DNA from: Salinimicrobium xinjiangense DSM 19287
GTDB taxonomy: Bacteria > Bacteroidota > Bacteroidia > Flavobacteriales > Flavobacteriaceae
NCBI RefSeq assembly: GCF_000423585.1
Contig: NZ_KE384057.1
Location: 1 to 54,287 of the forward strand
Direction: 5' to 3'
Length of the DNA: 54,287 bases
Part shown: positions 1,646 to 20,393 of the stretch, piece by piece
How positions within the stretch are numbered: the first letter of the stretch is position 1
Layout of the letters: every line of letters begins with the position of its first letter
Made by a program: the position numbers and the translations under genes
Notes under the pieces: generated by a model
What the model was told of the DNA's origin: nothing
Database searches by the model: none
The model's input: the letters and a program-made list of their open reading frames with translations, nothing else

Positions 1646-1680
1646 TCTAGACTCTAGACTCTAGTTTCTAATCTCCTAAA
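1646..1680. repeat. Heptamer tandem array next to the lpd stop
   Basis: Five consecutive 7-mers read TCTAGAC, TCTAGAC, TCTAGTT, TCTAATC, TCCTAAA. The array ends 4 bp from the stop codon of lpd (1685-1687) and begins 5 bp from the intron 3' end. It is one of a set of 7-nt-period arrays in this window. Confidence 0.8.
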
Positions 1681-1684
1681 AGAT

Positions 1685-3076
1685 CTACAAATGAATAACT
1701 TCCCCATAGGCATCGGCTACTGCTTCCATCACTGCTTCACTCATAGTTGGGTGTGGGTGGATGGCTTTTAGAACTTCGTGGCCTGTGGTTTCAAGTTTTC
1801 GTCCAAGAACAGCTTCGGCGATCATATCGGTTACACCGGCACCAATCATATGGCAGCCTAACCATTCGCCATATTTGGCATCAAAGATCACTTTTACAAA
1901 TCCGTCAGGTGTGCCGGCGGCTTTTGCTTTTCCGGAAGCCGAGAATGGGAATTTCCCAACCTTCAGCTCATATCCTGCTTCTTTGGCTTGCTTTTCGGTC
2001 ATTCCTACAGAAGCAATTTCAGGAGTTGCGTAAGTACATCCCGGGATGTTTCCGTAGTCGATGGGCTCTACATGCATACCTTTGATCTTTTCAACGCAGG
2101 TAATTCCTTCCGCAGAAGCAACGTGCGCAAGAGCAGGTCCTGCAACTACATCTCCGATTGCGTAAATTCCTTTGACGTTAGTCTCGTAAAACTGACTTAC
2201 TACGATCTTATCTTTATCTGTCTTAATTCCCAATTCTTCAAGTCCAATATTTTCAAGGTTGGATTTAATACCTACGGCCGAAAGGACGATATCGGCTTCG
2301 AGAGTTTCTTCGCCTTTTTTGGTCTTAACCTTAGCTTTTACAGTATTGCCTGATGTGTCAACGCTTTCAACAGCAGAACCGGTCATTACTTTAATTCCAG
2401 CTTTTTTGAAACTGCGCTCAAACTGTTTTGAGATCTCTTCATCTTCAAGCGGCACCAGGTTTGGAAGATATTCCACTACAGTAACATCTGTACCCATAGT
2501 CTTGTAGAAATGGGCAAACTCAACTCCAATTGCACCAGATCCTACTACGATCATAGATTTTGGCTGCTTCTCTAGGCTCATTGCCTCTCGGTAACCTATC
2601 ACCTTTTTTCCATCCTGCGGAAGCCCCGGAAGCTCTCTTGAGCGTGCACCGGTAGCGATGATAATATGATCTGCAGAATATTCTGTTTTCTTATCGTCTT
2701 TATCTGTAACCTCGATCTTTTTGCCCGATTTCAGTTTCCCGAATCCGTAGATGACATCGATCTTATTTTTCTTCATCAGGAATTGAACTCCCTTGCTCAT
2801 AGCGTCTGCTACTCCGCGGCTACGCTTAATAACGGCTCCGAAGTCCTTTTCAGCCTTCTCTACTTTTAGTCCGTAATCCTCTGCGTGGTTCAGATATTCA
2901 AATACCTGTGCACTTTTAAGAAGTGCTTTGGTTGGAATACATCCCCAGTTAAGGCATACACCTCCAAGGCTTTCTTTTTCTATAACGGCGGTTTTGAAAC
3001 CCAATTGTGATGCACGAATGGCAGTCACGTAGCCCCCGGGACCACTTCCTAAAACTATAACGTCGTATTTACTCAT
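1685..3076 (-). CDS. lpdA: Dihydrolipoyl dehydrogenase (E3)
   Basis: FAD-dependent E3 subunit that reoxidises dihydrolipoamide with NAD+ in pyruvate/2-oxoglutarate dehydrogenase complexes and the glycine cleavage system. The 463-aa protein has the N-terminal FAD motif GSGPGG at 10-15, the redox disulfide C41-x4-C46 (GGVCLNWGC), a second Rossmann motif for NAD (GSGAIG) near 180, the FAD-binding ATGARSRE segment, and the C-terminal catalytic HPHPTMSE with His442 and Glu447. Length and motifs are complete. It stands alone: its promoter gap (3077-3160) follows a terminator for the upstream gene. Which complex it serves cannot be told, as no E1/E2 genes are nearby. Confidence 0.97.
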   Translation of the reverse strand: MSKYDVIVLGSGPGGYVTAIRASQLGFKTAVIEKESLGGVCLNWGCIPTKALLKSAQVFEYLNHAEDYGLKVEKAEKDFGAVIKRSRGVADAMSKGVQFLMKKNKIDVIYGFGKLKSGKKIEVTDKDDKKTEYSADHIIIATGARSRELPGLPQDGKKVIGYREAMSLEKQPKSMIVVGSGAIGVEFAHFYKTMGTDVTVVEYLPNLVPLEDEEISKQFERSFKKAGIKVMTGSAVESVDTSGNTVKAKVKTKKGEETLEADIVLSAVGIKSNLENIGLEELGIKTDKDKIVVSQFYETNVKGIYAIGDVVAGPALAHVASAEGITCVEKIKGMHVEPIDYGNIPGCTYATPEIASVGMTEKQAKEAGYELKVGKFPFSASGKAKAAGTPDGFVKVIFDAKYGEWLGCHMIGAGVTDMIAEAVLGRKLETTGHEVLKAIHPHPTMSEAVMEAVADAYGEVIHL

Positions 3077-3162
3077 ATTCGGAAATTTATGTAACTGAAT
3101 TTAAGACAGCGAATTTACGGAAATTAACCTGAAACAGAAAGTATAGAAGATTGGGAAATACT

Positions 3163-3186
3163 CTAAAAAATGGCATTTTTGACACC
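3163..3186. repeat. Short AAAAATGGCATTTTTGACACC element
   Basis: An A-run/T-run near-palindrome with a TTTTTGACACC right half, matching the right half of elements at 13796, 24002 and others in the window. The left half has diverged. It lies upstream of lpd and downstream of the terminator at 3198-3230. Confidence 0.5.
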
Positions 3187-3191
3187 TTTAT

Positions 3192-3230
3192 AAAAAAATA
3201 TTCCTTTGACCCGGCGGGAAAAAGGAATAT
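3192..3230 (-). terminator. Terminator after the collagen-like lipoprotein gene
   Basis: A perfect 10-bp stem, ATATTCCTTT (3198-3207) with AAAGGAATAT (3221-3230), 13-nt loop. Read on the minus strand it is followed by a U tract (A run 3192-3198 on the plus strand). It ends the minus-strand msrB/lipoprotein transcript 30 bp after the stop. Confidence 0.8.
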
Positions 3231-3259
3231 CCTGATTTATATTATATACGTTTTGTTTT

Positions 3260-3772
3260 CTACAGTTCCAATGCCTGCATCACTGCATCATGATCTGAAA
3301 GATCAATATTGGTATCCACAGCAAAGTCTGAAGGCACTACAATAAACCTGAAAAACTGGTTTTGAGTATAAGCACCATCAAGAGTGGAAAGATCAAAGTT
3401 TCCATCGATGAGTAATTCAATGTCTGAAGCTGTGTGATTGAAAACATACTGAATGATCCTGCCATCACTTAAAAAGAAATTTTGAGGGATCATACTCCAG
3501 GTCTCGGTACCGTCAATAACTTCTCTTCTATAGACAAGTATGGCATCAGATTCCAGAACTTCGATCTCTGCCGGAATTGTAATCACTGTTGCATAAAAAT
3601 TACTATCTGCAAACCATTCGAAATCCACATCTTCAAATTCGAAGGTCTGTCCTACAATATTAACTCCGGGTTCTCCGGGAGGTCCCTGTGGTCCTTGCGG
3701 GCCGACATCATCTGAAGAGCAGGAGGTAAGGCCAAAGGCTATAAAAGCGAATAAAAGTGTTATTTTTCTCAT
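3260..3772 (-). CDS. Collagen-like lipoprotein, function unknown
   Basis: A 170-aa exported lipoprotein with a signal peptide ending in the lipobox LTSC (Cys about 18). Right after SSDDV comes a short collagen-type stretch of Gly-X-Y triplets (GPQGPQGPPGEPG, about residues 24-36). The rest is a roughly 130-residue domain of unknown fold, rich in beta-type sequence. Its start lies 2 bp after the msrB stop, so the two are translated from one message. The Gly-X-Y stalk probably spaces the domain from the membrane (inference). Small lipoproteins of this design are common in Flavobacteriia; no function is assigned. Confidence 0.85.
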   Translation of the reverse strand: MRKITLLFAFIAFGLTSCSSDDVGPQGPQGPPGEPGVNIVGQTFEFEDVDFEWFADSNFYATVITIPAEIEVLESDAILVYRREVIDGTETWSMIPQNFFLSDGRIIQYVFNHTASDIELLIDGNFDLSTLDGAYTQNQFFRFIVVPSDFAVDTNIDLSDHDAVMQALEL

Positions 3773-3774
3773 GA

Positions 3775-4179
3775 TTATTTAGATTTAGTTTCAAATTCTA
3801 TACTTGCTGAATTCACGCAGTAACGCTGCCCCGTCTCAGTGGGACCGTCATCAAAAACGTGACCCAAATGGCTGCCACAATTGGCGCAGAGGATCTCTGT
3901 GCGTATCATCCCAAAACTCCTGTCCTGTACATATTCTATGGCTCCTTCTATCGCGTTATCAAAGCTGGGCCAACCGCAGTTGCTCTCGAACTTTTGATCA
4001 CTTTCAAACAATTTTGTGTGACAGGCAGCACAATGATATTCTCCATTTTGGAAATGAAGGTTATATTTACCGGAATGAGGAGCTTCTGTTCCTTTTTCTC
4101 TTAGTACTCTGTATTGTTCTTCTGAAAGCTGCTTTCTCCATTCTGCTTCAGAGCGCTCTATGGGATATTTTTTGACCAT
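3775..4179 (-). CDS. msrB: Peptide-methionine (R)-S-oxide reductase, cytoplasmic
   Basis: Reduces the R epimer of methionine sulfoxide in proteins using thioredoxin. The 134-aa protein has the full MsrB pattern: zinc-binding pairs C50/C53 and C98/C101, the substrate motif GWPSFD at about 69-74, GHLGHVFDDG-type loop near 102-112 and the catalytic Cys121 in RYCVNS. No signal peptide, so it is cytoplasmic. It lies in the same orientation as a second, exported MsrB upstream (82-bp gap) and is coupled to the lipoprotein downstream. Confidence 0.96.
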   Translation of the reverse strand: MVKKYPIERSEAEWRKQLSEEQYRVLREKGTEAPHSGKYNLHFQNGEYHCAACHTKLFESDQKFESNCGWPSFDNAIEGAIEYVQDRSFGMIRTEILCANCGSHLGHVFDDGPTETGQRYCVNSASIEFETKSK

Positions 4180-4261
4180 TTTTCTATGTTTCTTTTAAAA
4201 TTAAAGAATAGCATGCGCTTCTACTCTTAAACAATTGATAAACTTTGTTGAAGAGGTACCG

Positions 4262-4744
4262 CTATTGAGAGTAGGGAACGAAATCCATGGCTACTCCATT
4301 AATGCAATGTCTTTTTCCGGTTGTTTTCTTAGGACCATCATTAAATACATGCCCCAGGTGTCCGCCGCATTGGGCACAAACCACTTCTGTTGCAGGAAAA
4401 CCACCTGTCCTGTCCGGCCTGTAGTCTACATTGGCTTCATTAATAGGGCGATCGAAACTGGGCCATCCGGTTCCGCTTTCGAATTTATGTTGGGTTTTGT
4501 AAAGTTCGTTTCCGCAGGCAGCACAAACAAAGATCCCGGGTTCTTCTATCCGGTTAAGTCTGCTGGAAAAAGCACGTTCGGTCCCTTTCTCACGCAGCAC
4601 ATGATAGGCAGCGGGACTAAGTTCTGCTTTCCACTCGGCTTCAGTTTTAGATACAGGATATATTTTTTGCGTTTTGGAATCCTGCGCATTTCCATTACAG
4701 CTTAGGATCAGGAATGAGAAAATGGCAAAAAAGATGGGTTTCAT
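4262..4744 (-). CDS. msrB: Peptide-methionine (R)-S-oxide reductase, exported lipoprotein
   Basis: A second MsrB, 160 aa, with a signal peptide and lipobox LILSC (Cys16), so it is predicted to act in the periplasm anchored to a membrane. Zinc cysteines C74/C77 and C123/C126, GWPSFD near 93-98, and catalytic Cys147 in KRHCING are all present. It would repair oxidised methionines in envelope proteins, while its neighbour works in the cytoplasm. The electron donor for the exported form is not obvious from this window. Confidence 0.94.
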   Translation of the reverse strand: MKPIFFAIFSFLILSCNGNAQDSKTQKIYPVSKTEAEWKAELSPAAYHVLREKGTERAFSSRLNRIEEPGIFVCAACGNELYKTQHKFESGTGWPSFDRPINEANVDYRPDRTGGFPATEVVCAQCGGHLGHVFNDGPKKTTGKRHCINGVAMDFVPYSQ

Positions 4745-4772
4745 GTGTTTGTTTTACATAAAGATGCAAGAA

Positions 4773-5642
4773 CTATACCGAAAGAAAATCAATTATTTTA
4801 TTAATAACTTCATAATTTCCCAATATGCGCCGGTGACCCTGGCCTTTGGTTACCAGGAGCTCACTATTTTCCAGTTTTTCATGGATCTCATAGGCTGAAT
4901 TGATCCTTACGTCTACATCGTCTTCATCGTGCACTACTAAGGTGGGGATCTTTACCCCTTCCGCAGAAACAGCACCCGAGAGGCTGTCCATATCGGCACC
5001 GAATTTATTGTCGAAATAGGATTTCATCCTGGCCGCCACCTTATCATTCATTTTCATATTCCGGGCAAATTCTTTAGTGATTCGCGTCACGCTGTTTGCC
5101 GTACCAATGATCACCAGCTTTTTTACGGGCAGCCCGTCAGACACTGCTTTTAAAGAAGCCATTCCTCCCAGGGAGTGGCCAATAACAGCTTCAAAAGGTC
5201 CGTATTTCTTTTCCAAAACCTCAATGGCTTCAATAAAGTGTGGCATCATGCTCATGTTGCCCGAAGCTTTACCATGAGCCGGTGCATCGAAACTTACCAC
5301 CCCGTAACCGGCCTTGATTAGTTCTTCGGCTATTACTGCGAGTTGGGTACCCCGACCACTCCAGCCGTGAGCGAGCAGGACTTTTTTGGAAGAGCTGCCG
5401 TATTCGTAAACTATAATCTCTCTTTGAAAATATGGAAGTATTAATTTCGACTGTCTGCTCTTCTCATCCATCTCCTTTTCCCGCTTTGGAAGTTTATAGC
5501 GAAATGGGGTGAGAAATAGTTTGGCTGCAAATCTACTGGCTAAAAAAGGAGAAATGGTGGTAAGGATCTTTCCTGTCACTAATATATAAGAAGGCACCAG
5601 CAGTCGTTGTACCGGAGTATTGTCTTTCTTTTGTTTTGTCAT
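4773..5642 (-). CDS. Alpha/beta hydrolase family protein
   Basis: A 289-aa soluble alpha/beta-fold hydrolase. Seen: oxyanion segment AHGWSGRG near 91-98, nucleophile elbow GHSLGG with Ser157, an acid in the VVHDEDD stretch near 237-243, and a histidine in GQGHRR near 267-272. The substrate is unknown. The frame is open upstream to a TTG at 5660, but the ATG at 5642 (MTKQKKDN) is the better start. Its 3' end is 28 bp from the msrB lipoprotein start, so a shared transcript is possible. Confidence 0.9.
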   Translation of the reverse strand: MTKQKKDNTPVQRLLVPSYILVTGKILTTISPFLASRFAAKLFLTPFRYKLPKREKEMDEKSRQSKLILPYFQREIIVYEYGSSSKKVLLAHGWSGRGTQLAVIAEELIKAGYGVVSFDAPAHGKASGNMSMMPHFIEAIEVLEKKYGPFEAVIGHSLGGMASLKAVSDGLPVKKLVIIGTANSVTRITKEFARNMKMNDKVAARMKSYFDNKFGADMDSLSGAVSAEGVKIPTLVVHDEDDVDVRINSAYEIHEKLENSELLVTKGQGHRRILGNYEVINKIIDFLSV

Positions 5643-5792
5643 AAAATAGAAAAAGCGCAAGATACAAATATGAAGCCTTACAGGACCAAGCTTTCCATGA
5701 GTTTTAATTTTTGGCAGGTATTTTGTTAAACCTAATTTAAAGCTCTAAGTGGAGCGGGGTTGATTTAGTAACTTTAACAAAAACCATTTATT

Positions 5793-6617
5793 ATGAGAAT
5801 TAGACAAATAGCAATAGTGGTTAGTTTTTTCCTGCTTCTGGCAGGTTGTAAGACCAACCCTTTTACCGGAGAAAAGAACCTTAACTTTTATCCAAACTCC
5901 CAGATATTTCCTGCCTCATTTGCCCAGTATAACCAAATGATGGCCGAAAGTAAACTCGAGACTGGTACCGAAGATTCCCGCATGATCAAGAACGTGGGAC
6001 AAAAGATCGCCGTTGCGGCAGAACGATACCTTGATGCAAACGGTTACCAGGGGTATCTCGATGATTATAAGTGGGAATTCAACCTGATAAAGGATGACCA
6101 GGTGAACGCATGGGCCATGCCCGGCGGAAAGATCGCCTTCTATACCGGCATTATGCCAATAGCCCAGGATGAAGCGGGGGTGGCTGCAATTATGGCTCAC
6201 GAGGTGGCTCACGCTCTGGCAGATCATGGTGCGCAACGTATGAGTGCCGCACAGTTACAACAACTTGGAGCTGTTGCCGGAAGTATAGCAGTGAGTGGCA
6301 GAAGCCAGGAAACCCAGCAGATCTTTGCACAGGCTTATGGCCTTGGATCTACAGTGGGTGTAATGCTGCCCTTTAGCCGAAGTCATGAATCTGAAGCCGA
6401 CAGGATTGGACTTACATTAATGGCCATAGCCGGATATGAACCTCTTGAAGCGGCCGAGCTTTGGAGGAGAATGAAAGCTAACGCAGGTGGAGGTGCACCC
6501 CCGGAATTTTTAAGCACTCACCCATCTTCAGATACCCGAATAAGGAATATCGAAAAATGGGCGCCAGAGGCAAGAGCCGAGGCAAGAAAATATGGCGTAA
6601 CTCAGTTCAGGAGTTAG
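5793..6617 (+). CDS. M48-family metallopeptidase lipoprotein
   Basis: A 274-aa zinc peptidase of the BepA/LoiP type, exported as a lipoprotein (lipobox LLAGC, Cys19, followed by KTNPFTG). The HEVAH zinc motif is at 136-140 and the third ligand is probably Glu201 in HESEAD. In related bacteria such proteins degrade or help assemble outer-membrane proteins; here that role is inferred. The gene is followed by its own terminator. A TAACTTTA sequence at 5769-5776 may be its -7 box, but no good -33 match was found. Confidence 0.93.
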   Translation: MRIRQIAIVVSFFLLLAGCKTNPFTGEKNLNFYPNSQIFPASFAQYNQMMAESKLETGTEDSRMIKNVGQKIAVAAERYLDANGYQGYLDDYKWEFNLIKDDQVNAWAMPGGKIAFYTGIMPIAQDEAGVAAIMAHEVAHALADHGAQRMSAAQLQQLGAVAGSIAVSGRSQETQQIFAQAYGLGSTVGVMLPFSRSHESEADRIGLTLMAIAGYEPLEAAELWRRMKANAGGGAPPEFLSTHPSSDTRIRNIEKWAPEARAEARKYGVTQFRS

Positions 6618-6641
6618 GAATAATAAAAAACAGTATTTTAG

Positions 6642-6667
6642 GAGCTGCCAATTTTGGCAGCTCTTTT
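6642..6667 (+). terminator. Terminator after the M48 peptidase gene
   Basis: Stem GAGCTGCCAA (6642-6651) with TTGGCAGCTC (6654-6663) followed by TTTTAATTTT. It separates the peptidase gene from the MFS gene that begins at 6682, so the latter either has a promoter inside this gap or depends on read-through. Confidence 0.8.
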
Positions 6668-6681
6668 AATTTTATGTTTTT

Positions 6682-8022
6682 ATGAACCCACCCCCAAAAG
6701 GAAGTAAAAAATTACTGAATGCCTGGGCCTTTTATGATTGGGCTAATTCTGTTTACAGCCTTGTTATTGCCTCTACTATTTTTCCGATTTTTTATGCGGC
6801 TCTAACCATTGTGAAGAATGAAGAGGGAGAGGTGATCCATGATACCGTGCAACTTCTGGGGTTCAATTTTAATAATGACAGTCTTATAAGTTATGTTACC
6901 GCCCTGGCTTTTATGGTAGTAGCTGTAATAAGTCCGTTTTTATCGGGGATAGCCGATTATGTCGGGAATAAAAAAAAATTCCTCAAATTCTTCTGTTATA
7001 TGGGAGCCCTCTCATGTATCGGGTTGTACTGGTTTAGTATTGAGAATCTGTGGTTTGGCCTCACCTGCTATTTCCTGGCTTTAGTCGGGTTCTGGGCCAG
7101 CCTGGTCTTTTACAATTCCTATCTTCCGGATATTGCTTTTCCCGAACAGCAGGATAAAGTGAGTGCAAAAGGTTTTTCAATGGGATATATTGGAAGTGTG
7201 ATCCTGTTGATCCTCTGCCTGATGATGGTGTTGAATTATGAATGGTTTGGCTTTGAGGACGAAGGGATGCCTACGCGATTGTCCTTTGTCCTTACAGGAG
7301 TGTGGTGGATAGGCTTTAGCCAGATCACCTATTACTATCTTCCAAAAGGAAATAAGAAGGAAAAGCTCACCCGTGATGTACTTTTCAACGGATTCAGGGA
7401 AATAAAAATGATCTGGAGGTCCTTTGAAAACAATCCGCAGTTAAAAAAATATCTGAGAGCCTTCTTTGTCTATAGCATGGCCGTGCAGACGGTGATGCTT
7501 ATTGCTACCTACTTCGGGATCGAAGAGGTGAACTGGTCAGGACAGGATGCTACAACAGGATTAATAGTAAGTATCCTGTTGATTCAGTTGGTCGCAGTAG
7601 CAGGGGCAACAATTACCTCCCGGCTCTCTTCAAAAATGGGAAATATTCAGACGCTTATTCTGGTTAACGTATTCTGGATTGGGATTTGCGTCTATGCTTA
7701 TTTTGTCAAAACTCCCATGCAGTTCTATATAGCTGCAGGCTTAGTGGGACTGGTAATGGGTGGGATTCAAACCCTCTCCCGTTCAACCTATTCAAAAATG
7801 CTTCCTGAAGGCACTCTCGATACCACCAGTTATTTCAGTTTCTATGACGTTTCTGAAAAAATAGGAATTGTTATAGGTATGTCACTTTACGGAATGGTCA
7901 CTCAGATCTTCGGCAGCATTAGGTTTTCTGTACTCTTTCTTACCGCTTTCTTTCTTATAGGAGTGTTTTTACTGCTGAAGGTCCCACGTACCGGGAAACT
8001 GGCAAAAAAAGAAGCGGCTTAA
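6682..8022 (+). CDS. MFS transporter, UMF1 (Atg22-like) family
   Basis: A 446-aa inner-membrane protein with about 12 hydrophobic segments. The N-terminal AWAFYDWANSVYSLVI segment and the internal LSRSTYSKMLP loop (about residue 367) are hallmarks of the UMF1 family of the major facilitator superfamily, related to the yeast vacuolar effluxer Atg22. The bacterial substrate is not established, though amino-acid efflux has been suggested for the family. The stop codon lies inside a bidirectional terminator stem. Confidence 0.9.
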   Translation: MNPPPKGSKKLLNAWAFYDWANSVYSLVIASTIFPIFYAALTIVKNEEGEVIHDTVQLLGFNFNNDSLISYVTALAFMVVAVISPFLSGIADYVGNKKKFLKFFCYMGALSCIGLYWFSIENLWFGLTCYFLALVGFWASLVFYNSYLPDIAFPEQQDKVSAKGFSMGYIGSVILLILCLMMVLNYEWFGFEDEGMPTRLSFVLTGVWWIGFSQITYYYLPKGNKKEKLTRDVLFNGFREIKMIWRSFENNPQLKKYLRAFFVYSMAVQTVMLIATYFGIEEVNWSGQDATTGLIVSILLIQLVAVAGATITSRLSSKMGNIQTLILVNVFWIGICVYAYFVKTPMQFYIAAGLVGLVMGGIQTLSRSTYSKMLPEGTLDTTSYFSFYDVSEKIGIVIGMSLYGMVTQIFGSIRFSVLFLTAFFLIGVFLLLKVPRTGKLAKKEAA

Positions 8023-8066
8023 AATCCCTTTTTTGACACCTTAGTGAAAAGAACTTTAAGCCGCTT
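8012..8066. terminator. Bidirectional terminator overlapping the MFS stop codon
   Basis: AAGCGGCTTAAA (8012-8023) pairs with TTTAAGCCGCTT (8055-8066), a perfect 12-bp stem with a 31-nt loop. The left arm contains the last codons and the TAA (8020-8022) of the MFS gene. The loop carries CTTTTTTGACACC, the dispersed half-site seen elsewhere. It serves both the plus-strand MFS gene and the minus-strand DUF2807 gene. Confidence 0.7.
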
Positions 8067-8082
8067 AGTTACTTCTGAAGTT

Positions 8083-8820: not shown

Positions 8821-8848
8821 CCTGATTTTTAAAGTTTATTGATCGATT

Positions 8849-13705: not shown

Positions 13706-13721
13706 AGTTGAGATTCGCAAA

Positions 13722-13746
13722 AGCCCCGGAAGTTCCGGGGCTCTTT
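13722..13746 (+). terminator. Terminator after lon
   Basis: Stem AGCCCCGG (13722-13729) with CCGGGGCT (13735-13742), loop AAGTT (stem extendable inward), followed by CTTTGTTT. GC-rich stem plus U-rich tail. Confidence 0.85.
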
Positions 13747-13795
13747 GTTTAAAAGCTTTTTCTTTTAAAGCCGCTCTAATTGTTTATTTTTGGAG

Positions 13796-13822
13796 GGTGT
13801 CAAAAAGGCCATTTTTGGCACC
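13796..13822. repeat. Short imperfect palindrome GGTGTCAAAAA...TTTTTGGCACC
   Basis: The clearest full copy of the dispersed element: GGTG-T-CAAAAA, spacer GGCCA, TTTTTG-G-CACC. It lies between the lon terminator and cmk (ATG 13862), in the probable cmk leader or promoter. Related copies are at 3163, 8028, 24002, 27489 and 28222. Confidence 0.6.
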
Positions 13823-13861
13823 TGTTTATTTCCGGCATTTCAGCCGGCACAACCGTATTTT

Positions 13862-14554
13862 ATGACAAAAAAGATCACCATTGCGATAGACGGATTTTCA
13901 TCTACAGGTAAAAGTACCGTAGCAAAACAACTGGCAAAGGAGTTGGGTTATGTTTATGTAGATACCGGGGCCATGTATCGTGCCGTTACCTTATACGCTC
14001 TCCGGAAAAAGTACATTTTTGATGATCATTTTGATAAAAATGCGTTAATAGCTGAACTTCCGCTAATCCGCTTAAAATTTATCTTTAATCCTGAAGTGGG
14101 GTTTGGAGAGATGTATCTTAACGATGAAAAGGTAGAGAAGGAGATAAGGCAAATGGAGGTTTCCCAATATGTAAGTAAGGTGGCTGCAGTACCCGAGGTG
14201 CGGGAAATGCTGGTAGCTCAACAGCAGGAAATGGGTAAAGAGAAAGGCATAGTGATGGATGGCCGGGATATTGGAACTGTAGTGTTTCCCGAGGCTGAAC
14301 TTAAGATATTCATGACCGCCAGTGCACAGGAAAGAGCACAGCGTCGCTATAAAGAGCTGAGTGAAAGAGGAGAGGAAGTCACCTATAAGGAAGTGTTGGA
14401 AAATGTCGAGGAAAGAGACCATCTGGACACTACAAGAAAAGATTCTCCACTGGTAAAAGCTAAAGACGCAAAGGAAATTGATAATTCTCACCTTACGCTA
14501 ACCGGGCAATTCGAAAAGATTCTGGAGCTTTACAATGCTACAATTAGCAACTAG
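13862..14554 (+). CDS. cmk: Cytidylate kinase
   Basis: Phosphorylates CMP and dCMP with ATP. The 230-aa protein has the P-loop GFSSTGKST near 11-19, DTGAMYRA near 34-41, the DGRDIGT motif for CMP binding near 138-144, and the DSPL/lid region near 195. The frame is open upstream to 13790, but the ATG at 13862 (MTKKITIAID) matches the family start and leaves the palindrome at 13796 non-coding. Cmk often precedes rpsA in bacteria; here the two are separated by a repeat block. Confidence 0.97.
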   Translation: MTKKITIAIDGFSSTGKSTVAKQLAKELGYVYVDTGAMYRAVTLYALRKKYIFDDHFDKNALIAELPLIRLKFIFNPEVGFGEMYLNDEKVEKEIRQMEVSQYVSKVAAVPEVREMLVAQQQEMGKEKGIVMDGRDIGTVVFPEAELKIFMTASAQERAQRRYKELSERGEEVTYKEVLENVEERDHLDTTRKDSPLVKAKDAKEIDNSHLTLTGQFEKILELYNATISN

Positions 14555-14560
14555 TAAGCA

Positions 14561-14611
14561 CCAATTTACAAATTCCAAATTCCAATATCTCTAATTTGAA
14601 GATTTGAAGAT
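14561..14611. repeat. Heptamer-period array after cmk
   Basis: Starting 6 bp after the cmk stop, the sequence runs in 7-nt steps: CCAATTT, ACAAATT, CCAAATT, CCAATAT, CTCTAAT, TTGAAGA, TTTGAAG. It is degenerate but keeps phase for about seven units. Confidence 0.65.
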
Positions 14612-14624
14612 GGGCCCAATCTCT

Positions 14625-14650
14625 GTCCCGTAGGGACAAAATATTGGTAG
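14625..14650. repeat. GTCCC-TAG-GGGAC palindrome with ATATTGGTAG arm
   Basis: GTCCCGTAGGGAC (14625-14637) followed by AAAATATTGGTAG. In reverse this reads CTACCAATATTTTGTCCC, almost the same as CTACCAATATTTCGCCCC at 20234-20251. The two loci therefore carry members of one repeat family, one with GTCCC and one with GCCCC palindromic tips. Confidence 0.65.
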
Positions 14651-14690
14651 AAGCCCAAGTCCCCAAGTCCCCAAGTCCCCAAGTCCCAAA
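14651..14690. repeat. Octamer array CCCCAAGT
   Basis: Four AAGT blocks at 14657, 14665, 14673 and 14681 give an exact 8-nt period, then decay. This is the only block of the set with period 8 rather than 7. Confidence 0.8.
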
Positions 14691-14717
14691 TTCCTCCTGA
14701 TAATTGTTTATTGTTCA

Positions 14718-14748
14718 TTGGTAATTGTTGAAATAAGTTGTATTTTTG
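14718..14748 (+). promoter_or_regulatory. rpsA promoter, Bacteroidota type
   Basis: TTG (14718-14720), 20-nt spacer, TATTTTTG (14741-14748), an exact match to the TTG-N19/21-TAnnTTTG consensus of the phylum. Transcription would start near 14755, leaving a leader of about 115 nt before the rpsA ATG. Confidence 0.65.
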
Positions 14749-14754
14749 CGCTCC

Positions 14755-14870
14755 TTTTAGCAATAGGTCGGAAGACTAAAAGGGTTGAAAATCAATATTA
14801 TAAACACTTCTGTGTTCTTTTATTGCTCACATCTTCCGGAAGAATACAGGATACAAATTAATTATCAGCA
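14755..14870 (+). promoter_or_regulatory. Structured rpsA leader, candidate autoregulatory element
   Basis: Two 7-nt complementary pairs interleave: AGCAATA (14759-14765) with TATTGCT (14821-14827), and CGGAAGA (14769-14775) with TCTTCCG (14832-14838). This order gives a pseudoknot topology rather than nested stems. A small hairpin AACAC-TTCT-GTGTT (14803-14816) sits inside, and the second 3' arm lies in the palindrome TCTTCCGGAAGA. S1 represses its own translation in proteobacteria; similar control here is an inference. Confidence 0.4.
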
Positions 14871-16730
14871 ATGGCTGAAGAAAACAAAAATCAAGAAGTT
14901 CAGGGTTCTGAAAACGCTGAAATTCAACCTGTAGCGGGTATGGAGACTCAATCTCAACCTGATGCAGAAGTACAGCAACAAGATCCTGAGCAGTTCTTAA
15001 AGGAATTCAACTGGCACAACTACGAAGAGGGAATTGATCCTATCGACGATCAAAAGCTGGAAGAATTTGAGAAGCTTGTAGCAGAAAATTTCGTTGACAC
15101 TTTACATGATGAAGTAGTTACCGGAAAAGTGATCAACCTTACAGATCGTGATGCGATCATCGACATTAATGCAAAAAGTGAAGGTGTAATCTCTCTTAAC
15201 GAGTTCCGTTACAACCCAGATCTTAAAGTTGGAGATGAGGTAGAAGTATTGATCGATGTACGTGAAGATGCTACAGGACAGTTGATCCTTTCTCACCGTA
15301 AGGCCCGTGTTATTATGGCATGGGATCGTGTTAACAAAGCACATGATGAAAGCCTTATCGTGAATGGATACGTGAAATGCCGCACAAAAGGTGGTATGAT
15401 CGTAGACGTATTTGGTATTGAAGCATTCCTTCCTGGTTCACAGATCGATGTGAAACCAATCAGGGATTACGATGCATACGTTGGAAAAACAATGGAATTT
15501 AAAGTTGTGAAGATCAACCACGAATTCAAGAACGTTGTTGTTTCTCACAAAGCGCTTATCGAAGCCGATATCGAAGAGCAGAAAAAAGAAATTATCGGGC
15601 AGCTTGAAAAAGGTCAGGTACTTGAAGGTACTGTTAAGAACATTACTTCTTACGGTGTATTCGTTGATCTTGGAGGTGTTGACGGACTTATCCACATTAC
15701 AGACCTTAGCTGGTCTCGTATCAACCACCCGAATGAGATCGTTGAGCTTGATCAAAAACTGAATGTTGTTATCCTTGACTTTGATGAGGCTAAAACTAGA
15801 ATTCAGTTAGGTCTTAAGCAGCTTAGCAAACACCCATGGGAAGCTCTTGACGAGAACCTTAAAGTTGGTGATAAAGTAAAAGGTAAAGTAGTTGTGATCG
15901 CAGATTACGGTGCATTTATCGAAGTTGCCGAAGGTGTTGAAGGTCTTATCCACGTTTCTGAAATGTCATGGAGTACTCACCTGCGCTCAGCTCAGGACTT
16001 CGTGAATGTTGGAGATGAGGTTGAAGCTCAGATCCTTACTTTAGATCGTGAAGACAGAAAAATGTCTCTTGGTATCAAGCAATTGACTCCAGATCCATGG
16101 ACTGACATCACTTCTAAGTATCCTGTAGGTTCAAGACACACAGGTATCGTTCGTAACTTCACTAACTTCGGAGTATTCGTAGAACTAGAAGAAGGAATCG
16201 ACGGACTTATCTATATCTCAGACCTTTCATGGACTAAGAAGATCAAACATCCATCAGAATTTACTAACGTAGGTGATAAGCTTGAGGTTGTAGTTCTTGA
16301 GCTTGATGTTGAAGGCCGTAAATTGAGCCTTGGTCATAAGCAAACTGAGTCTAACCCCTGGGATAAATACGAAACTGAATTCGCTGTAGGAACTACTCAC
16401 ACAGCTGCAATTACAGAGATCGTTGACAAAGGTGCAACTATTGACTTTAATGAAGATATCACTGCATTCGTGCCACAACGTCACCTTGAGAAAGAAGACG
16501 GAAGCAAACTGAAGCAGGGAGAAACTGCAGAATTCCAGATCATTGAGTTCAACAAAGAATTCAAGAGAGTGGTAGCATCTCACACTGCTATTCACAAGGA
16601 AGAGGAGCAGCAAATTGTAAAGCAGGCTCAGAAAAAAGCCGCTACGCAACAAGCGCAAAGCAGCACCACTATGGGTGATGTAAACTCCGAACTTCAGGCG
16701 TTGAAAGATAGAATGGAAGGAAAATCATAA
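14871..16730 (+). CDS. rpsA: 30S ribosomal protein S1
   Basis: RNA-binding protein that delivers mRNA to the 30S subunit. The 619-aa product has six S1 (OB-fold) domains at roughly 80-145, 160-230, 247-317, 332-402, 417-487 and 502-572; the middle repeats show the GVFVDLGGVDGLIH and GAFIEVAEGVEGLIH signature. The first 75 residues are acidic and Gln-rich, and the tail is Ala/Gln/Lys-rich, as in other Bacteroidota. Codon use is strongly biased, as expected for a highly expressed gene. It has its own promoter and terminator. Confidence 0.98.
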   Translation: MAEENKNQEVQGSENAEIQPVAGMETQSQPDAEVQQQDPEQFLKEFNWHNYEEGIDPIDDQKLEEFEKLVAENFVDTLHDEVVTGKVINLTDRDAIIDINAKSEGVISLNEFRYNPDLKVGDEVEVLIDVREDATGQLILSHRKARVIMAWDRVNKAHDESLIVNGYVKCRTKGGMIVDVFGIEAFLPGSQIDVKPIRDYDAYVGKTMEFKVVKINHEFKNVVVSHKALIEADIEEQKKEIIGQLEKGQVLEGTVKNITSYGVFVDLGGVDGLIHITDLSWSRINHPNEIVELDQKLNVVILDFDEAKTRIQLGLKQLSKHPWEALDENLKVGDKVKGKVVVIADYGAFIEVAEGVEGLIHVSEMSWSTHLRSAQDFVNVGDEVEAQILTLDREDRKMSLGIKQLTPDPWTDITSKYPVGSRHTGIVRNFTNFGVFVELEEGIDGLIYISDLSWTKKIKHPSEFTNVGDKLEVVVLELDVEGRKLSLGHKQTESNPWDKYETEFAVGTTHTAAITEIVDKGATIDFNEDITAFVPQRHLEKEDGSKLKQGETAEFQIIEFNKEFKRVVASHTAIHKEEEQQIVKQAQKKAATQQAQSSTTMGDVNSELQALKDRMEGKS

Positions 16731-16755
16731 TCCGGAAATTTTTCTGAATAATTCA

Positions 16756-16787
16756 AACCTCCTTAGGCAACTAAGGAGGTTTTTTTA
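16756..16787 (+). terminator. Terminator after rpsA
   Basis: Stem AACCTCCTTAG (16756-16766) with CTAAGGAGGTT (16771-16781), GCAA loop, then a run of T (16780-16786). A textbook intrinsic terminator. Confidence 0.92.
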
Positions 16788-16886
16788 TACCTTTTTACTG
16801 TCTAATGGCCATCGTCATTCAGACAAATATTAAATCTGAAGTTCCCTACCTTCAACAACAAACCAACCAACTGAAAACGTAAGACT

Positions 16887-17882
16887 ATGAGTAAAACTAT
16901 TCTTTTTAAAAACCGCCCGGCAGGGAAACCGGTAACGTCAGATTTCGAAATTGTAACGGAAGAAGCTCCTGATCCAAAAGAAGGGGAAGTGCTTTTAAAA
17001 GCCCAATATATATCTGTTGATCCATATTTGCGCGGCAGGATGCGGGATGAGGAATCTTACATTCCTCCCTTTAAAATAAATGAACCCATGGAGTCCATGG
17101 TGGTAGCAGAAGTCATTGATTCCCGAAATAGTAATTTTGAGAAAGGGGAGCTCGTTTCGGGAATGCTGAAGTGGAAAGAATTGCAAACATCTGTGGGTAC
17201 AGGTTTAAACCGGGTAGATCCCGATCTTGCACCACCTTCAGCCTTTTTAGGAATTTTGGGGTTGACAGGACTCACAGCATTTCTAGCGCTGGATAAAATC
17301 GGAAATCTACGTGCCGGCGATACTCTGGTAGTTTCCGGTGCTGCAGGAGCGGTGGGAAGTGTTGCCGGACAAATAGGTAAGATCAAAGGCTGTATGGTAG
17401 TAGGGATTGCCGGGAGCGATGGAAAGGTTTCCCATATAGAAGACAAATTTGGCTTCGACAAAGGGATAAATTACAACACTACAGAAGATATGGCAGAGGC
17501 CCTGAGAAAGGTTTGTACAGACGGGGTTGATGTATATTTTGACAATGTAGGCGGGGAGATCCTGGATGCTGTACTTCAAAACATCAACAAAGATGCGCGT
17601 ATCATCAATTGTGGTGCAATCTCTCTTTATAATGAAACTAAGATGCCAACCGGTCCCCGGCCGGAAGGTATCCTTATTAAGAAAACTGCTTTGATGCAGG
17701 GCTTTTTAGTCAGAGATCATGTCAAAGATTTCGGAAGAGCTTTAAGGCAATTAAGTAACTGGTTAGAGGAAGGGAAGCTGGAATATGATGAAACCATTGT
17801 AGAAGGCTTTGATAAGCTTCCTGAAGCTTTCATAGGACTCTTTGAAGGAAGAAATGTAGGGAAGATGATCGTGAAGGTCTAA
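16887..17882 (+). CDS. NADP-dependent oxidoreductase, MDR family (CurA-like)
   Basis: A 331-aa zinc-free medium-chain reductase related to E. coli CurA and prostaglandin reductases/alkenal reductases, which reduce the C=C bond of alpha,beta-unsaturated carbonyls with NADPH. Seen: N-terminal GroES-like domain with SVDPYLRGRM near 48-57, Rossmann motif AAGAVGSVAGQIG near 152-164, and GVDVYFDNVGG near 213-223. No structural or catalytic zinc cysteines. The natural substrate is unknown. It is monocistronic and is followed at once by a repeat array. Confidence 0.92.
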   Translation: MSKTILFKNRPAGKPVTSDFEIVTEEAPDPKEGEVLLKAQYISVDPYLRGRMRDEESYIPPFKINEPMESMVVAEVIDSRNSNFEKGELVSGMLKWKELQTSVGTGLNRVDPDLAPPSAFLGILGLTGLTAFLALDKIGNLRAGDTLVVSGAAGAVGSVAGQIGKIKGCMVVGIAGSDGKVSHIEDKFGFDKGINYNTTEDMAEALRKVCTDGVDVYFDNVGGEILDAVLQNINKDARIINCGAISLYNETKMPTGPRPEGILIKKTALMQGFLVRDHVKDFGRALRQLSNWLEEGKLEYDETIVEGFDKLPEAFIGLFEGRNVGKMIVKV

Positions 17883-17883
17883 A

Positions 17884-17911
17884 GTACAAGGTTCAAGGTT
17901 TAAGGTTTCAA
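17884..17911. repeat. Heptamer array after the oxidoreductase gene
   Basis: Begins 1 bp after the stop codon: GTACAAG, GTTCAAG, GTTTAAG, GTTTCAA, then decays through GGGTTTG. Confidence 0.75.
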
Positions 17912-17940
17912 GGGTTTGAAAAGCTAACAACCAAAACCGG

Positions 17941-18444
17941 CTTAAAAAAGTGGGCAGTTTGCAGTAGTTAGTAGGCAGTGGAATTTTTAGTTCAGCGCAT
18001 TCTACTTAATTGAATTTTCAGGAGAACTAGAACCTGAACCTGCAACTTGTAACCTGCAACACAAATTCAACAGCAACCGGTAACTGAAAACCGACAACTG
18101 ATAACCAGCTTAAAAAAGTAGGCAGTTTGCAGTAGTTAGTAGGCAGTGGAATTTTTAGTTCAGCGCATTCTACTTAATTGAATATTCAGGAGAACTAGAA
18201 CCTGAACCTGCAACTTGTAACCTGCAACACAAATTCAACAGCAACCGGTAACTGAAAACCGACAACTGATAACCGGCTTAAAAAAGTAGGCAGTTTGCAG
18301 TAGTTAGTAGGCAGTGGAATTTTTAGTTCAGCGCATTCTACTTAATTGTATCTTCAGGAGAACTAGAACCTGAACCTGCAACTTGTAACCTGCAACACAA
18401 ATTCAACCGCAACCAATAACTGAAAACAGGTAACTGAAACCGAC
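17941..18444. repeat. Three tandem 168-bp repeats with internal 7-nt period
   Basis: Copies start at 17941, 18109 and 18277, each with CTTAAAAAAG; period exactly 168 bp (24 x 7). Copies 1 and 2 differ by only a few bases; copy 3 diverges at its end. Each copy holds a GTnnnCA heptamer block (from 17950: GTGGGCA, GTTTGCA, GTAGTTA, GTAGGCA) and an nnnnAAC-type block of up to about 12 heptamers in one phase (18022-18105: for example CAGCAAC, CGGTAAC, TGAAAAC, CGACAAC, TGATAAC). No ORF spans the unit. The gap 17883-18465 contains no gene. Confidence 0.92.
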
Positions 18445-18461
18445 AACTGAAAACCGACAAC
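18414..18461. repeat. Heptamer array next to the macrodomain gene stop
   Basis: CAATAAC, TGAAAAC, AGGTAAC, TGAAAC (6 nt), CGACAAC, TGAAAAC, CGACAAC; ends 4 bp from the stop of the minus-strand macrodomain gene. It continues the nnnnAAC phase of the third 168-bp copy. Confidence 0.8.
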
Positions 18462-18465
18462 AACT

Positions 18466-19017
18466 TTATCCCAAATACTCTTTCCCCTGAAAAATTTGTT
18501 CCAGGACCTTTTCATGGATTTCCAGATCCTGACTGCTGTAGAGCACAAAAACGATCTGCTTCACATTCTTTAGATCGGGTATTTTTTTAATTACAGCAGA
18601 AAAAGCCACTCCGGCAGCCTCTTCAGCAGGATATCCAAAGACTCCTGTAGAAATTGCCGGAAAGGCGATGGAAGTTAATTTTTTCTGTTCTGCCAGGTCA
18701 AGAGCATTTGAATAACAGCGGGCCAGTAGCTGATCTTCAGGTTTATCCTGACCATATACAGGACCGAGACAGTGGATCACGTACTTATTTGGAAGATCAT
18801 ATCCCCCGGTAATTACTGCTTCGCCGGGTTTTATAGGTCCGAGAGGTCGTGCTTCTTTTGCGAGGCCGGGACCTGCAGCCCCGTGGATCGCACCAGCAAC
18901 ACCGCCACCTGTTTCCAGTTGCGCATTGGCCGCATTTACCACGGCTTCACAGTCTTGTTGCCTCGTAATATCACCCTGTCGCAACTCTATGCTGACACCC
19001 GAAATTTCCTTTTTCAT
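18466..19017 (-). CDS. Macrodomain ADP-ribose-binding protein (O-acetyl-ADP-ribose deacetylase type)
   Basis: A 183-aa single macrodomain of the YmdB/MacroD type, which binds ADP-ribose and removes it from O-acetyl-ADP-ribose or protein carboxylates. Seen: GDIT near 15-18, the VVNAANAQLETGGGVAGAIH loop near 26-45, and AFPAISTGVFGYP near 122-134. The frame is open to an ATG at 19074, but the ATG at 19017 (MKKEIS) has an AGAGG ribosome-binding sequence 2-3 nt ahead and matches the family start. It is divergent from the SDR gene. Confidence 0.92.
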   Translation of the reverse strand: MKKEISGVSIELRQGDITRQQDCEAVVNAANAQLETGGGVAGAIHGAAGPGLAKEARPLGPIKPGEAVITGGYDLPNKYVIHCLGPVYGQDKPEDQLLARCYSNALDLAEQKKLTSIAFPAISTGVFGYPAEEAAGVAFSAVIKKIPDLKNVKQIVFVLYSSQDLEIHEKVLEQIFQGKEYLG

Positions 19018-19124
19018 ATCCTCTAATATAAAGAAATTCGATTTTGGATTACAATCCCGACTGATTTTTGTCATTCTTTTTTCTTAATGGTTTTTCTACT
19101 TTAGGTGAAATTAATTCAGTAGCC

Positions 19125-19865
19125 ATGAAAAATAAAGTAGTTATTATTACAGGTGCCGGCTCGGGTATTGGAGAGGCCACAGCACTTCTTTTTGCGAAGG
19201 AAGGAGCTAAAGTTGTTGTTTCCGATATTAATGATGAAACGGGGGAAGAGGTGGTGAAGCGTATAGAAAAGGCCGGAGGAACAGCGAGTTTCTTTAAGGC
19301 AGATGTTGCTTCGGCAGCAGAAAATAAAGCCCTGGTCGATTTTTCGATCAAAACCTATGGACAACTTGATGTCGCGGTTAACAATGCCGGAATAGGAGGG
19401 GAGGCCAATAAGATTGCCGACATGACCCTCGAAGGCTGGCATCGGGTTATTGACGTGAACCTGCACAGTGTCTTCTACGGAATGAAATATCAAATTGAAG
19501 CTATGTTAAAGAATGGACAGGGAAGTATAGTAAATATTTCATCCATTCTGGGAAGTGTAGGTTTTGAAGGCTCTGCCGGTTATGTGGCTGCCAAACATGC
19601 TCTTAATGGCATGACCCGCACTGCAGCATTGGAATATTCGGGACAGGGAATAAGGATCAATTCTGTAGGACCTGCTTTTATTGATACTCCGCTGTTAGAT
19701 CAATTGGATGATGAAATAAAAAAACAGCTCATTTCCCTGCACCCAATCGGTCGTCTGGGAAGAAGTAAGGAAGTTGCAGAACTTATCCTTTGGTTGGGAA
19801 GTGATAAAGCCTCTTTTGCCACCGGTAGCTATTATCCAATTGATGGAGGATATCTGGCTCGTTAA
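19125..19865 (+). CDS. Short-chain dehydrogenase/reductase
   Basis: A 246-aa classical SDR. Seen: the cofactor loop TGAGSGIG near 9-16, NNAG near 87-90, catalytic Ser in NISSILG, and the YVAAK catalytic pair (Tyr and Lys near 153-157), plus C-terminal YPIDGGYLA. The D at the end of the second strand (VVSDIN) favours NAD(H) over NADP(H). The substrate is unknown. The frame is open from 19068, but the ATG at 19125 (MKNKVVIITG) is the family start. Confidence 0.94.
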   Translation: MKNKVVIITGAGSGIGEATALLFAKEGAKVVVSDINDETGEEVVKRIEKAGGTASFFKADVASAAENKALVDFSIKTYGQLDVAVNNAGIGGEANKIADMTLEGWHRVIDVNLHSVFYGMKYQIEAMLKNGQGSIVNISSILGSVGFEGSAGYVAAKHALNGMTRTAALEYSGQGIRINSVGPAFIDTPLLDQLDDEIKKQLISLHPIGRLGRSKEVAELILWLGSDKASFATGSYYPIDGGYLAR

Positions 19866-19900
19866 AGTTAGAAGTACGAAGGTAGATTTACGAAGTACGA
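19866..19900. repeat. Heptamer array directly after the SDR stop
   Basis: Immediately after the TAA: AGTTAGA, AGTACGA, AGGTAGA, TTTACGA, AGTACGA. Five units in phase with no spacer between stop codon and array. Confidence 0.8.
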
Positions 19901-20003
19901 ATGGTTGAGATTCTTTCCGGCTGAAATCATAATAAGAAGAAAAAGATTCTTCGCTTCGCAAAAGCTGCGCTCTGAATGACAGGTGGAATTAAGGATCAAA
20001 AAA

Positions 20004-20030
20004 AGAGCCTATTCCTGTGGAATAGACTCT
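20004..20030. terminator. Terminator-like hairpin between SDR and rhlE
   Basis: AGAGCCTATTCC (20004-20015) with GGAATAGACTCT (20019-20030), one mismatch, TGT loop, A run before and T-rich sequence after. It could serve both convergent genes, though it is about 140 bp from the SDR stop. Confidence 0.6.
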
Positions 20031-20048
20031 TGAATTATTGTTATGTTT

Positions 20049-20083
20049 ACTGACCACTGACCACTGAACACTGACCACTATCA
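20049..20083. repeat. ACTGACC heptamer array, left copy
   Basis: ACTGACC, ACTGACC, ACTGAAC, ACTGACC, ACTATCA in phase. The same heptamer recurs at 20359-20393, so the two arrays bracket a 275-bp segment. Confidence 0.8.
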
Positions 20084-20173
20084 TATGACTAAACTCTTAC
20101 CTGGCCGTTTTATAGAGGCTAAGAACAAACTCTCGGGCTTACGATCCTTGAATTCAACCTGAATTTAAAACCG

Positions 20174-20262
20174 TGTCTGTCCTACGGACGGTATACTTAG
20201 GTTGTATATACAACCGGGGGTTTCACCCCGGGCTACCAATATTTCGCCCCGCTGGGGCTGGC
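20174..20262. repeat. Composite element of four short palindromes
   Basis: In order: GTCCTACGGAC (within 20178-20190), GGTTGTATATACAACC (20200-20215, perfect), CCGGGG-GTTTCA-CCCCGG (20214-20232), and GCCCC-GCT-GGGGC (about 20247-20259). Between the last two lies CTACCAATATTTCG, shared in reverse with 14637-14650. This looks like a REP-type or miniature mobile repeat. The surrounding gap 19866-20393 has no gene. Confidence 0.7.
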
Positions 20263-20358
20263 AAAAGCAGAAAATCTGAATTCGTACTTCTAAAATTTAA
20301 CTTCTACTTTACTGAAAGGTCATTTTACCCGGTAGTCCCGCTTTTCAGCGGGGGAGGT

Positions 20359-20393
20359 ACTGACCACTGACCACTGACCACTGTCCACTGAAT
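20359..20393. repeat. ACTGACC heptamer array abutting the rhlE stop
   Basis: ACTGACC three times, then ACTGTCC and ACTGAAT; the last base is adjacent to the rhlE stop codon (20394-20396). Confidence 0.85.

Follow-up and report, generated by a model that had tools for sequence, protein, structure and literature searches.

Cyanobacteria carry tandem repeats known as short tandemly repeated repetitive (STRR) sequences. Heptanucleotides are the most abundant long simple-sequence repeat class in most genomes according to a 2007 survey by Mrazek, which, where it is cited in two later papers (PMC4692102, PMC4679880), proceeds by unit length, proposes polymerase slippage and a 7-nt polymerase contact for heptanucleotides, and is not credited with any mention of gene-end anchoring or polarity. 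Rehm et al. (2015, PMC4692102) described heptameric repeats, GGGAATC / GGGGA(C/T)T, in Xanthomonas and Nostoc; the Xanthomonas unit varies at positions 5 and 7 (GGGANTN), the G-rich strand upstream of genes is the noncoding strand, and the same paper cites three tandem heptanucleotides in Calothrix. TAACTGA direct repeats were described in Beggiatoaceae, cyanobacteria, and some Bacteroidetes (MacGregor 2015, PMC4679880) and are mentioned in a Thiomargarita genome paper (PMC4853749), and (GATAGRA)n is mentioned in a survey of prokaryotic satellites (PMC6749651). Here, we analyze 7-nt tandem arrays in a 54,287-nt stretch of Salinimicrobium xinjiangense DSM 19287 (the window) and in the rest of its genome. 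Heptameric repeats are already known, and what appears to be new here is their multi-word form at gene ends. The arrays are probably heptameric simple-sequence repeats of the known type, in a multi-word form, gathered in the 3' flanks of genes and grown by slippage.

The 7-nt excess, the noncoding location, and the 7-nt steps between relatives documented below place these arrays among the heptanucleotide simple-sequence repeats. As described in the parts of the Xanthomonas and Nostoc paper used here (PMC4692102), those repeats share with ours a heptamer unit, a mostly intergenic location nearer the preceding gene, scarcity between divergent genes, a downstream G-rich strand that is the coding strand, inverted pairs, and lengths that differ between relatives. 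They differ in having one G-run word per genome, capable of forming a G-quadruplex, whereas many words, mostly without GGG, occur here; the overlap with stop codons and the strand bias at 0-5 nt seen here were not found in those parts of that paper. The TAACTGA repeats (PMC4679880, in part) are likewise intergenic heptamers that stand beside other heptamers in Gramella forsetii and Aequorivita sublithincola, and that paper also covers mixed heptamers in Microcystis and a pair of Cyanothece strains whose indels come in steps of 7 nt. In its main genome, however, one exact word lies mostly directly upstream of start codons, in contrast to the many degenerate words that we find downstream of genes, abutting stops and few in divergent gaps. 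ACTGATC-type words, one base from TAACTGA, are abundant here. Several different tandem heptanucleotides in one genome, as cited for Calothrix (PMC4692102), are also a likeness to the cyanobacterial STRR sequences. The first-pass annotation of the window, made from its letters, knew of no named system that does this; that statement fails, as heptameric repeats have long been published, including a preference for sites downstream of genes, on the coding strand (PMC4692102, PMC4679880, each in part). Among the literature matches listed, from a search with most subscription journals outside its range, none concerned arrays in Salinimicrobium or the polarity of multi-word heptamers.

The window runs from base 1 to base 54,287 of contig C8, in a draft genome of 3.76 Mb. 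The host is described as a marine bacterium, and its ribosomal protein S1 shows 98% identity with the S1 of Salinimicrobium terrae and S. sediminis. We took one genome (G006) as S. sediminis and used three further genomes of the genus (G005, G008, and G011). Sample 1 comprises 1.254 Mb of the window's genome with 713 gaps, including the window and ∼100 kb picked for ACTGACC matches, and sample 2 comprises 800 kb in whole stretches that were fixed prior to analysis; joined, they hold 2.054 Mb, 1,694 genes, and 1,178 gaps. Genes were called with our own script based on open reading frames and hexamers, not with a standard gene finder. Ungapped tandem arrays with periods of 3 to 28 were counted in intergenic gaps, at a threshold of 12 for the period counts and a looser threshold of 10 for the array set used for placement. 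In sample 1, period 7 accounts for 61 arrays and its multiples 14 and 21 for 52 and 16, followed by periods 8 (12 arrays), 16 (10), and 24 (8); one shuffled set of gaps gave a single period-7 array, and coding sequence gave none. Sample 2 contains 98 arrays with period 7, 12 with period 15, and 7 with period 8, with 0 period-7 arrays in the shuffles and 2 in coding sequence. No period other than a multiple of 7 exceeds 12 arrays in either sample. Period 8 (12 and 7 arrays), with its multiples 16 and 24, forms a minor second intergenic class, and apart from this class the signal at lag 7 is intergenic and confined to 7 and its multiples, which bears out the genome-wide check that the annotation had proposed. 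Within the window, base identity in intergenic DNA is 0.301 at lag 7 or 14 and 0.266 to 0.288 at other lags from 4 to 13; no identity peak at lag 7 is present in the coding DNA of the window. At the looser threshold, the joined sample holds 226 intergenic 7-nt arrays, ∼110 per megabase.

Co-directional gaps hold 136 of these 226 arrays, convergent gaps 78, and divergent gaps 12. An array is present in 48/190 convergent, 75/740 co-directional, and 7/248 divergent gaps. The convergent and divergent gaps differ with p = 8e-13; the co-directional and divergent gaps differ with p = 1.5e-4 in the joined sample and p = 0.08, not significant, in sample 2 alone. Gap length is no explanation of the convergent excess because the contrast persists within length classes (13/33 convergent versus 0/98 divergent gaps at 150-300 nt, and 26/57 versus 6/57 above 300 nt). 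The arrays start within 6 nt of a stop codon, or overlap one, in 34 of 92 cases in sample 1 and 32 of 122 in sample 2, where random placement in the same gaps gives 13.0 and 12.8, with a maximum of 25 in 2,000 trials each. The abutment is thus ∼2.5 times chance. An equal frequency away from stops, which the annotation had named as refuting its proposal, is not what is observed. The location that it gave, in 3' flanks, stands. Of 23 tRNA genes, however, 4 also have an array no more than 40 nt past their end, and therefore the gene end, not the stop codon as such, seems to be the anchor. Of the 12 divergent-gap arrays, 3 share their gap with tRNA or tmRNA genes; one of these follows tRNA-Ser at a distance of 4 nt, and the tmRNA-linked one is on the 5' side. 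GGTTCAA-type arrays occur 4 nt past tRNA-Ser (C1 273758) and 1 nt past tRNA-Tyr (C6a 106250); we take this word to resemble the tRNA T-loop motif, possibly by chance.

Where a recognizable terminator (a hairpin and a T-run) follows, the array lies between the stop and the terminator in 20/20 and 5/5 cases in two sets, the first of which includes four relatives; shuffled flanks yield a terminator in 15/749. No recognizable terminator was found in 50/70 and 33/38 array flanks. Terminators occur in 19/37 and 5/22 convergent flanks with an array and in 100/236 and 28/76 without one, and in 1/33 and 0/16 co-directional flanks with an array and 150/513 and 43/189 without one.

For strand polarity, each array of the joined sample was assigned to its nearest stop and scored as G-rich or C-rich on the sense strand of that gene. 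Arrays overlapping a stop are G-rich in 28 cases and C-rich in 9, and at 0-5 nt from the stop the counts are 28 and 0 with one tie (n = 29). The excess continues at 6-20 nt (16 versus 3) and 21-60 nt (15 versus 9), and sample 2 alone gives 34 G-rich and 5 C-rich arrays at ≤20 nt. Array-free 3' flanks are unskewed (G 0.170, C 0.174), and therefore the G bias belongs to the arrays. The placement of the G-rich strand on the coding strand downstream of genes is that of the GGGAATC-type heptamers. In convergent gaps, read on the plus strand, the left third is G-rich by 12 to 1 and the right third C-rich by 8 to 1; with both strands represented at one place, replication direction cannot, we infer, explain the polarity.

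The words themselves differ between arrays, as the annotation had noted, with the amendment that a limited set recurs genome-wide. The 86 near-stop arrays give 3,649 pairs across different gaps; 136 of these pairs share a consensus word, compared with 11 when words are reversed and 4 when they are reverse-complemented. About ten word families recur across the genome, and with one mismatch allowed the largest are AGTGGTC (21), GGTTTAA (16), and GTAGTGA (11). Across the 184 units of the AGTGATC family (43 arrays), position 5 is A in 81 units, G in 64, T in 27, and C in 12, and the remaining positions are 89 to 97% fixed. AGTATTG, ATTGTTA, and TAGAGTC have their free position in a common frame and a second free one, giving fixed cores with one or two free bases (AGTG-N-TC, AGTA-N-T-K, ATTG-N-T-N, and TAGA-N-T-C); GGTTCAA (variable at positions 1, 2, and 5, mostly by transitions) and TTGGTGA fall outside this frame, which was picked after seeing the data. 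The concentration of substitutions in one column per array was considered as a separate signal and set aside, as a simulation of growth by slippage accounts for it (0.397 vs 0.392), with 8/124 arrays above their own simulated 95%. Runs of three G are absent from the main words AGTGATC, GGTTCAA, AGTATTG, ATTGTTA, and TAGAGTC, which suggests that G-quadruplexes are not the cause; a minority of units, for example TTGGGGA, do have a G-run. We also rejected the idea of a stop tape for all frames (7 being coprime with 3), as stops in all three frames occur in 36/86 near-stop arrays on the sense strand and in 46/86 on the antisense strand.

The order of units within an array bears on how they are added. 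Over 84 arrays, whole-unit identity exceeds permutation at unit lag 1 (z 4.0) and lag 2 (z 6.2), with no excess at lag 3 (z -2.6). The annotation had suggested one process that writes units into 3' flanks, rather than copies of one element. Its second half holds: the arrays are not copies of one element because different words share one period and one kind of location, mostly without shared flanks. The writing of units from outside is not supported, given that neighbors are alike at lags 1 and 2 and not at lag 3, and that 3 of 4 gaps that could be aligned between close relatives differ by one unit. A telomerase-like enzyme or other external template adding heptamers at gene ends would account for the single period, the few words, the G-rich strand running from gene into gap beside stops, and units that, in several families, leave one position free. 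We nevertheless judge it very unlikely: the units copy their neighbors rather than a fixed template, a single array can show drift in its words, and the word sets vary by lineage. Local copying, unit-sized differences, and lineage-specific words thus favor slippage over an external writer.

The comparison of relatives supplies these unit-sized differences. G005 and G008, whose proteins are 96.8% identical, have arrays in the same 7 of 123 orthologous gaps. One of the seven is identical, three have exactly one 7-nt indel (two of these also carry a 1-nt indel), and three are much diverged; the gain or loss of units that the annotation had proposed to look for is thus seen in 3 of the 4 gaps that align cleanly. 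In the array-free control, 2 of 199 indels, in 101 gaps, are of 7 nt. The divergence of array and array-free gaps does not differ significantly between the two genomes (0.834 vs 0.884, p 0.37). The word is replaced on both sides of the gap in 2 of the 3 diverged gaps. The lpd gap of G005 is replaced whole, with its terminator and both flanking arrays, and the TCTAGA words are kept in G008, G006, and the window. A word switch by copying from elsewhere was rejected for this gap, as no other full copy of it exists in 12 genomes of the genus, where the matches consist of the terminator hairpin only. The window's genome shares 5/6 array gaps with G006 (among 58 gaps), 2/4 with G008 (among 40), and 0/3 with G011 (among 26). 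A 200-kb stretch of G006 has 10 arrays of period 7 and, besides 14, none of any other period from 4 to 20; a 200-kb stretch of G011 has 3 of period 7 and one each of periods 10, 11, and 20. S. terrae has no arrays in a 22-kb orthologous stretch.

Such shared occupancy raises the question of function. If the units bound a protein or shaped mRNA ends, selection could keep both words and fixed positions, and the recurring words, units in which five or six positions are fixed and one or two vary, the occupation of matching gaps in relatives (7/7 between G005 and G008, and the five of six with G006), and the constant place ahead of the terminator are all consistent with this. Words are, however, replaced in place in 2/7 gaps of close relatives and differ between genes, no array gap is shared with G011, and S. 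terrae lacks arrays in the stretch above. A functional 3'-flank element is therefore unlikely in our estimation, and function is superfluous for explaining the data.

The gaps replaced on both sides also bear on the idea that arrays travel as part of a mobile or palindromic element. The same palindromic element lies at or within ∼25 nt of AGTG arrays at four loci, including 20331-20358 of the window, the arrays at the two stops of a convergent gap in a more distant genome (G382) are a perfect inverted pair, and both sides were replaced together in two G005 gaps. Against this, same-word array pairs rarely share a same-side flank (18/1,176, 7/630, 0/325, and 6/276 pairs), the replaced G005 gap lacks another full copy in the 12 genus genomes, and inverted complementarity between the two arrays of a gap is not above that of swapped pairs. 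The common boundaries, or flanks copied with the array, that mark a mobile element like the repetitive extragenic palindromic (REP) class are not the rule here, and we regard this route as decidedly improbable. The complementarity result comes from 53 two-array gaps in the window's genome and four relatives (6.55 vs 6.11 ± 0.55 for swapped pairs, p 0.21), and it led us to reject coupled inverted arms that form a hairpin around the terminator, an arrangement that had looked persuasive in the G006 and G008 lpd gaps. Direct similarity of the two arrays in the same gaps is above that of swapped pairs (7.0 vs 5.16 ± 0.36).

Growth by slippage could proceed as follows. A seed of one or two units would grow by slipped-strand copying in DNA that is transcribed yet not translated, and arrays elsewhere would be removed as they break genes or promoters; exposure of the nontemplate strand during transcription, for example in an R-loop, may help slippage, as the G bias of the sense strand suggests. 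The scarcity of arrays in genes and in promoter-only gaps fits selection against them there. Several points weigh against this account. Such selection does not explain the gene-end peak, the place ahead of terminators, or the strand bias, and tolerance alone does not predict the bias. Words that recur at unlinked genes are not expected from simple slippage that starts in random local sequence. The same column is the most variable in ∼30/49 arrays, an agreement that is unexpected unless the arrays share ancestry, the core is constrained, or the position mutates more. The identity at unit lag 1 is favored by array detection, that at lag 2 less so. For 9 of the 12 divergent-gap arrays, the gap contains neither a tRNA nor a tmRNA gene that could account for them. 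R-loops cannot be put down to a lost RNase HI, the family being present in 12/12 genus genomes. Finally, the sense strand leans C-rich far from stops (17 G-rich vs 24 C-rich at 61-150 nt, and 21 vs 38 beyond 150 nt) and near starts (11 C-rich vs 5 G-rich, not significant), which a purely transcription-linked bias would not predict.

The gene-end peak, the pre-terminator place, and the strand bias point to transcribed untranslated DNA or to repair at gap ends. In the latter case, a gap would be resected at a break, its 3'-ending strands extended by repeated short copying with telomere-like polarity, and the ends joined; the prediction is then a G-rich strand that points inward from either gene, regardless of gene orientation. 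The left and right thirds of the convergent gaps agree with this, and the C-rich lean close to starts and at longer distances from stops, though weak, fits as well, a pattern that is also reported for the Xanthomonas repeats (PMC4692102, in part). The lean near starts is, however, the nonsignificant one, an earlier count of arrays ≤25 nt from a start gave no clear polarity rule, divergent gaps, which also break, hold few arrays, and local copying at unit lag 2 requires no break. Extension of break ends is accordingly improbable, and slippage in transcribed DNA is preferred over it because the G bias fades at ∼20-60 nt from the stop. Seven as a favored unit length of the longer tandem repeats in bacteria and the polymerase-contact idea are already in print, without a tested mechanism (the 2007 survey as cited in PMC4692102 and PMC4679880). 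With ∼110 arrays per megabase, many words, a 28-to-0 bias, and single-unit differences, the period, the polarity, and the role of transcription become separately testable in this genome. We offer only tentatively the broader idea that one mutational process, common to distant phyla, places heptamers where transcription units end on the 3' side, always with the same strand polarity; it would reflect a word-independent 7-nt step of an enzyme that acts on DNA exposed at transcript ends. The Xanthomonas unit as printed, GGGANTN (PMC4692102, in part), fits the common frame of the free position seen here.

Generality beyond the genus rests on 80 Flavobacteriaceae loci and on word counts. The 80 loci (1.61 Mb, S. 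sediminis included) contain 22 period-7 arrays in 13 loci, one of which is Salinimicrobium, and the next periods, multiples of 7 excluded, have 6 arrays each. Two ACTGATC units (≤1 mismatch) occur 118 times here, and among 394 other Bacteroidota genomes 36 times in one, 14 in another, and fewer in the rest. GTTCAAG has 70 occurrences here, and scattered genomes from other families also show high counts (102, 83, 59, 42, and others); these are not the genomes high for ACTGATC, and the words are lineage-specific. In single stretches of four other Bacteroidota genomes, picked for a high count of one word (68,236 bases in total, one stretch of only 8,236), 7-nt arrays were found in G382 only. In that genome, from another Bacteroidota family, a convergent gap (L247 11068-11243) has GGTTCAA-type arrays at both stops, and the pair are perfect inverted copies, unit order included.

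In the window itself, the best period-7 score of each of the eight spans named in the annotation was compared with 400 dinucleotide shuffles. Five have clear 7-nt arrays (0/400 shuffles reach the score), two are weak (18022-18105, p 0.02, and 18414-18461, p 0.015, with period 14 outscoring 7 in both), and one (19866-19900, p 0.09) is not significant by itself. The proximity to stops, put at 0-6 bp for most of them, holds for the genes of the CurA-like protein (overlap), RhlE (3 nt), the macrodomain protein (4 nt), and SDR (direct), and does not for cmk (7 nt), lpd (14 nt), or the 20049-20079 array, which adjoins no stop (nearest 183 and 314 nt off).

The TCTAGAC array at 1646..1670 (minus strand) is G-rich on the lpd sense strand and has the same word and place in G006 and G008. 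The CCAAATT-type array at 14562..14585 (plus strand), which begins past the cmk stop, is C-rich on the sense strand and an exception to the polarity; a related array is present in G006 and G008. The end of the same named span, 14594-14611, has period 8 rather than 7. Two arrays in the cmk flank were overlooked by the annotation, a perfect 8-nt array of CCCAAGTC at 14654..14687 (4.2 copies, no strand assigned), which belongs to the second period class, and a 7-nt array of ATTGTTA type at 14701..14729 (no strand assigned) in the cmk-rpsA gap, with a related array in G006. The GGTTCAA-type array at 17881..17908 (plus strand), on the stop of the CurA-like gene, is G-rich on the sense strand, and its word is kept in G006. 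The gap between the CurA-like and macrodomain genes contains a 168-bp unit present three times (Tandem Repeats Finder, 17935..18442, no strand assigned), itself made of AAC- and CAGT-containing heptamer-like stretches and absent from the corresponding gaps of G006, G008, G005, and G011. Both weak spans lie in this repeat or at its end, and the second is an AACTGAN array (18414..18461, minus strand) that ends just off the macrodomain gene stop.

Immediately past the SDR stop lies a degenerate GAAGTACGA stretch (19866..19900, plus strand), and a similar one is retained at the matching site in G006 and G008. A likely intrinsic terminator at 20006..20037 (plus strand) of the SDR-rhlE gap was picked out by eye and aligned with G006; the hairpin scan reported it in G006 and not in the window. 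The ACTGACC array at 20049..20079 (minus strand) lies in a segment missing from G006, whose gap has a single ACTGAYC array 6 nt from the rhlE stop. The counterpart of the latter is the window's second ACTGACC array (20359..20390, minus strand), which reads G-rich (CAGTGGT) on the rhlE sense strand. Rfam gave no match at gathering score in the array region; with a lax cutoff, two matches appeared (E 0.26 and 0.27), both below gathering scores. GC-rich palindromic elements with GGTAG at the foot occur at 20331-20358, near 20210-20260, and near 14620-14650, and presumably resemble REP sequences. A group II intron (52-1640) ends 5 nt ahead of the TCTAGAC array in the lpd gap, with Rfam matches to D1-D4 at 52-120 and RF00029 at 1564-1640 flanking a reverse transcriptase/maturase gene at 159-1556. 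Between two genes at 49621-49665, a TTCA tetranucleotide array of 11.5 copies may be a length-variable site.

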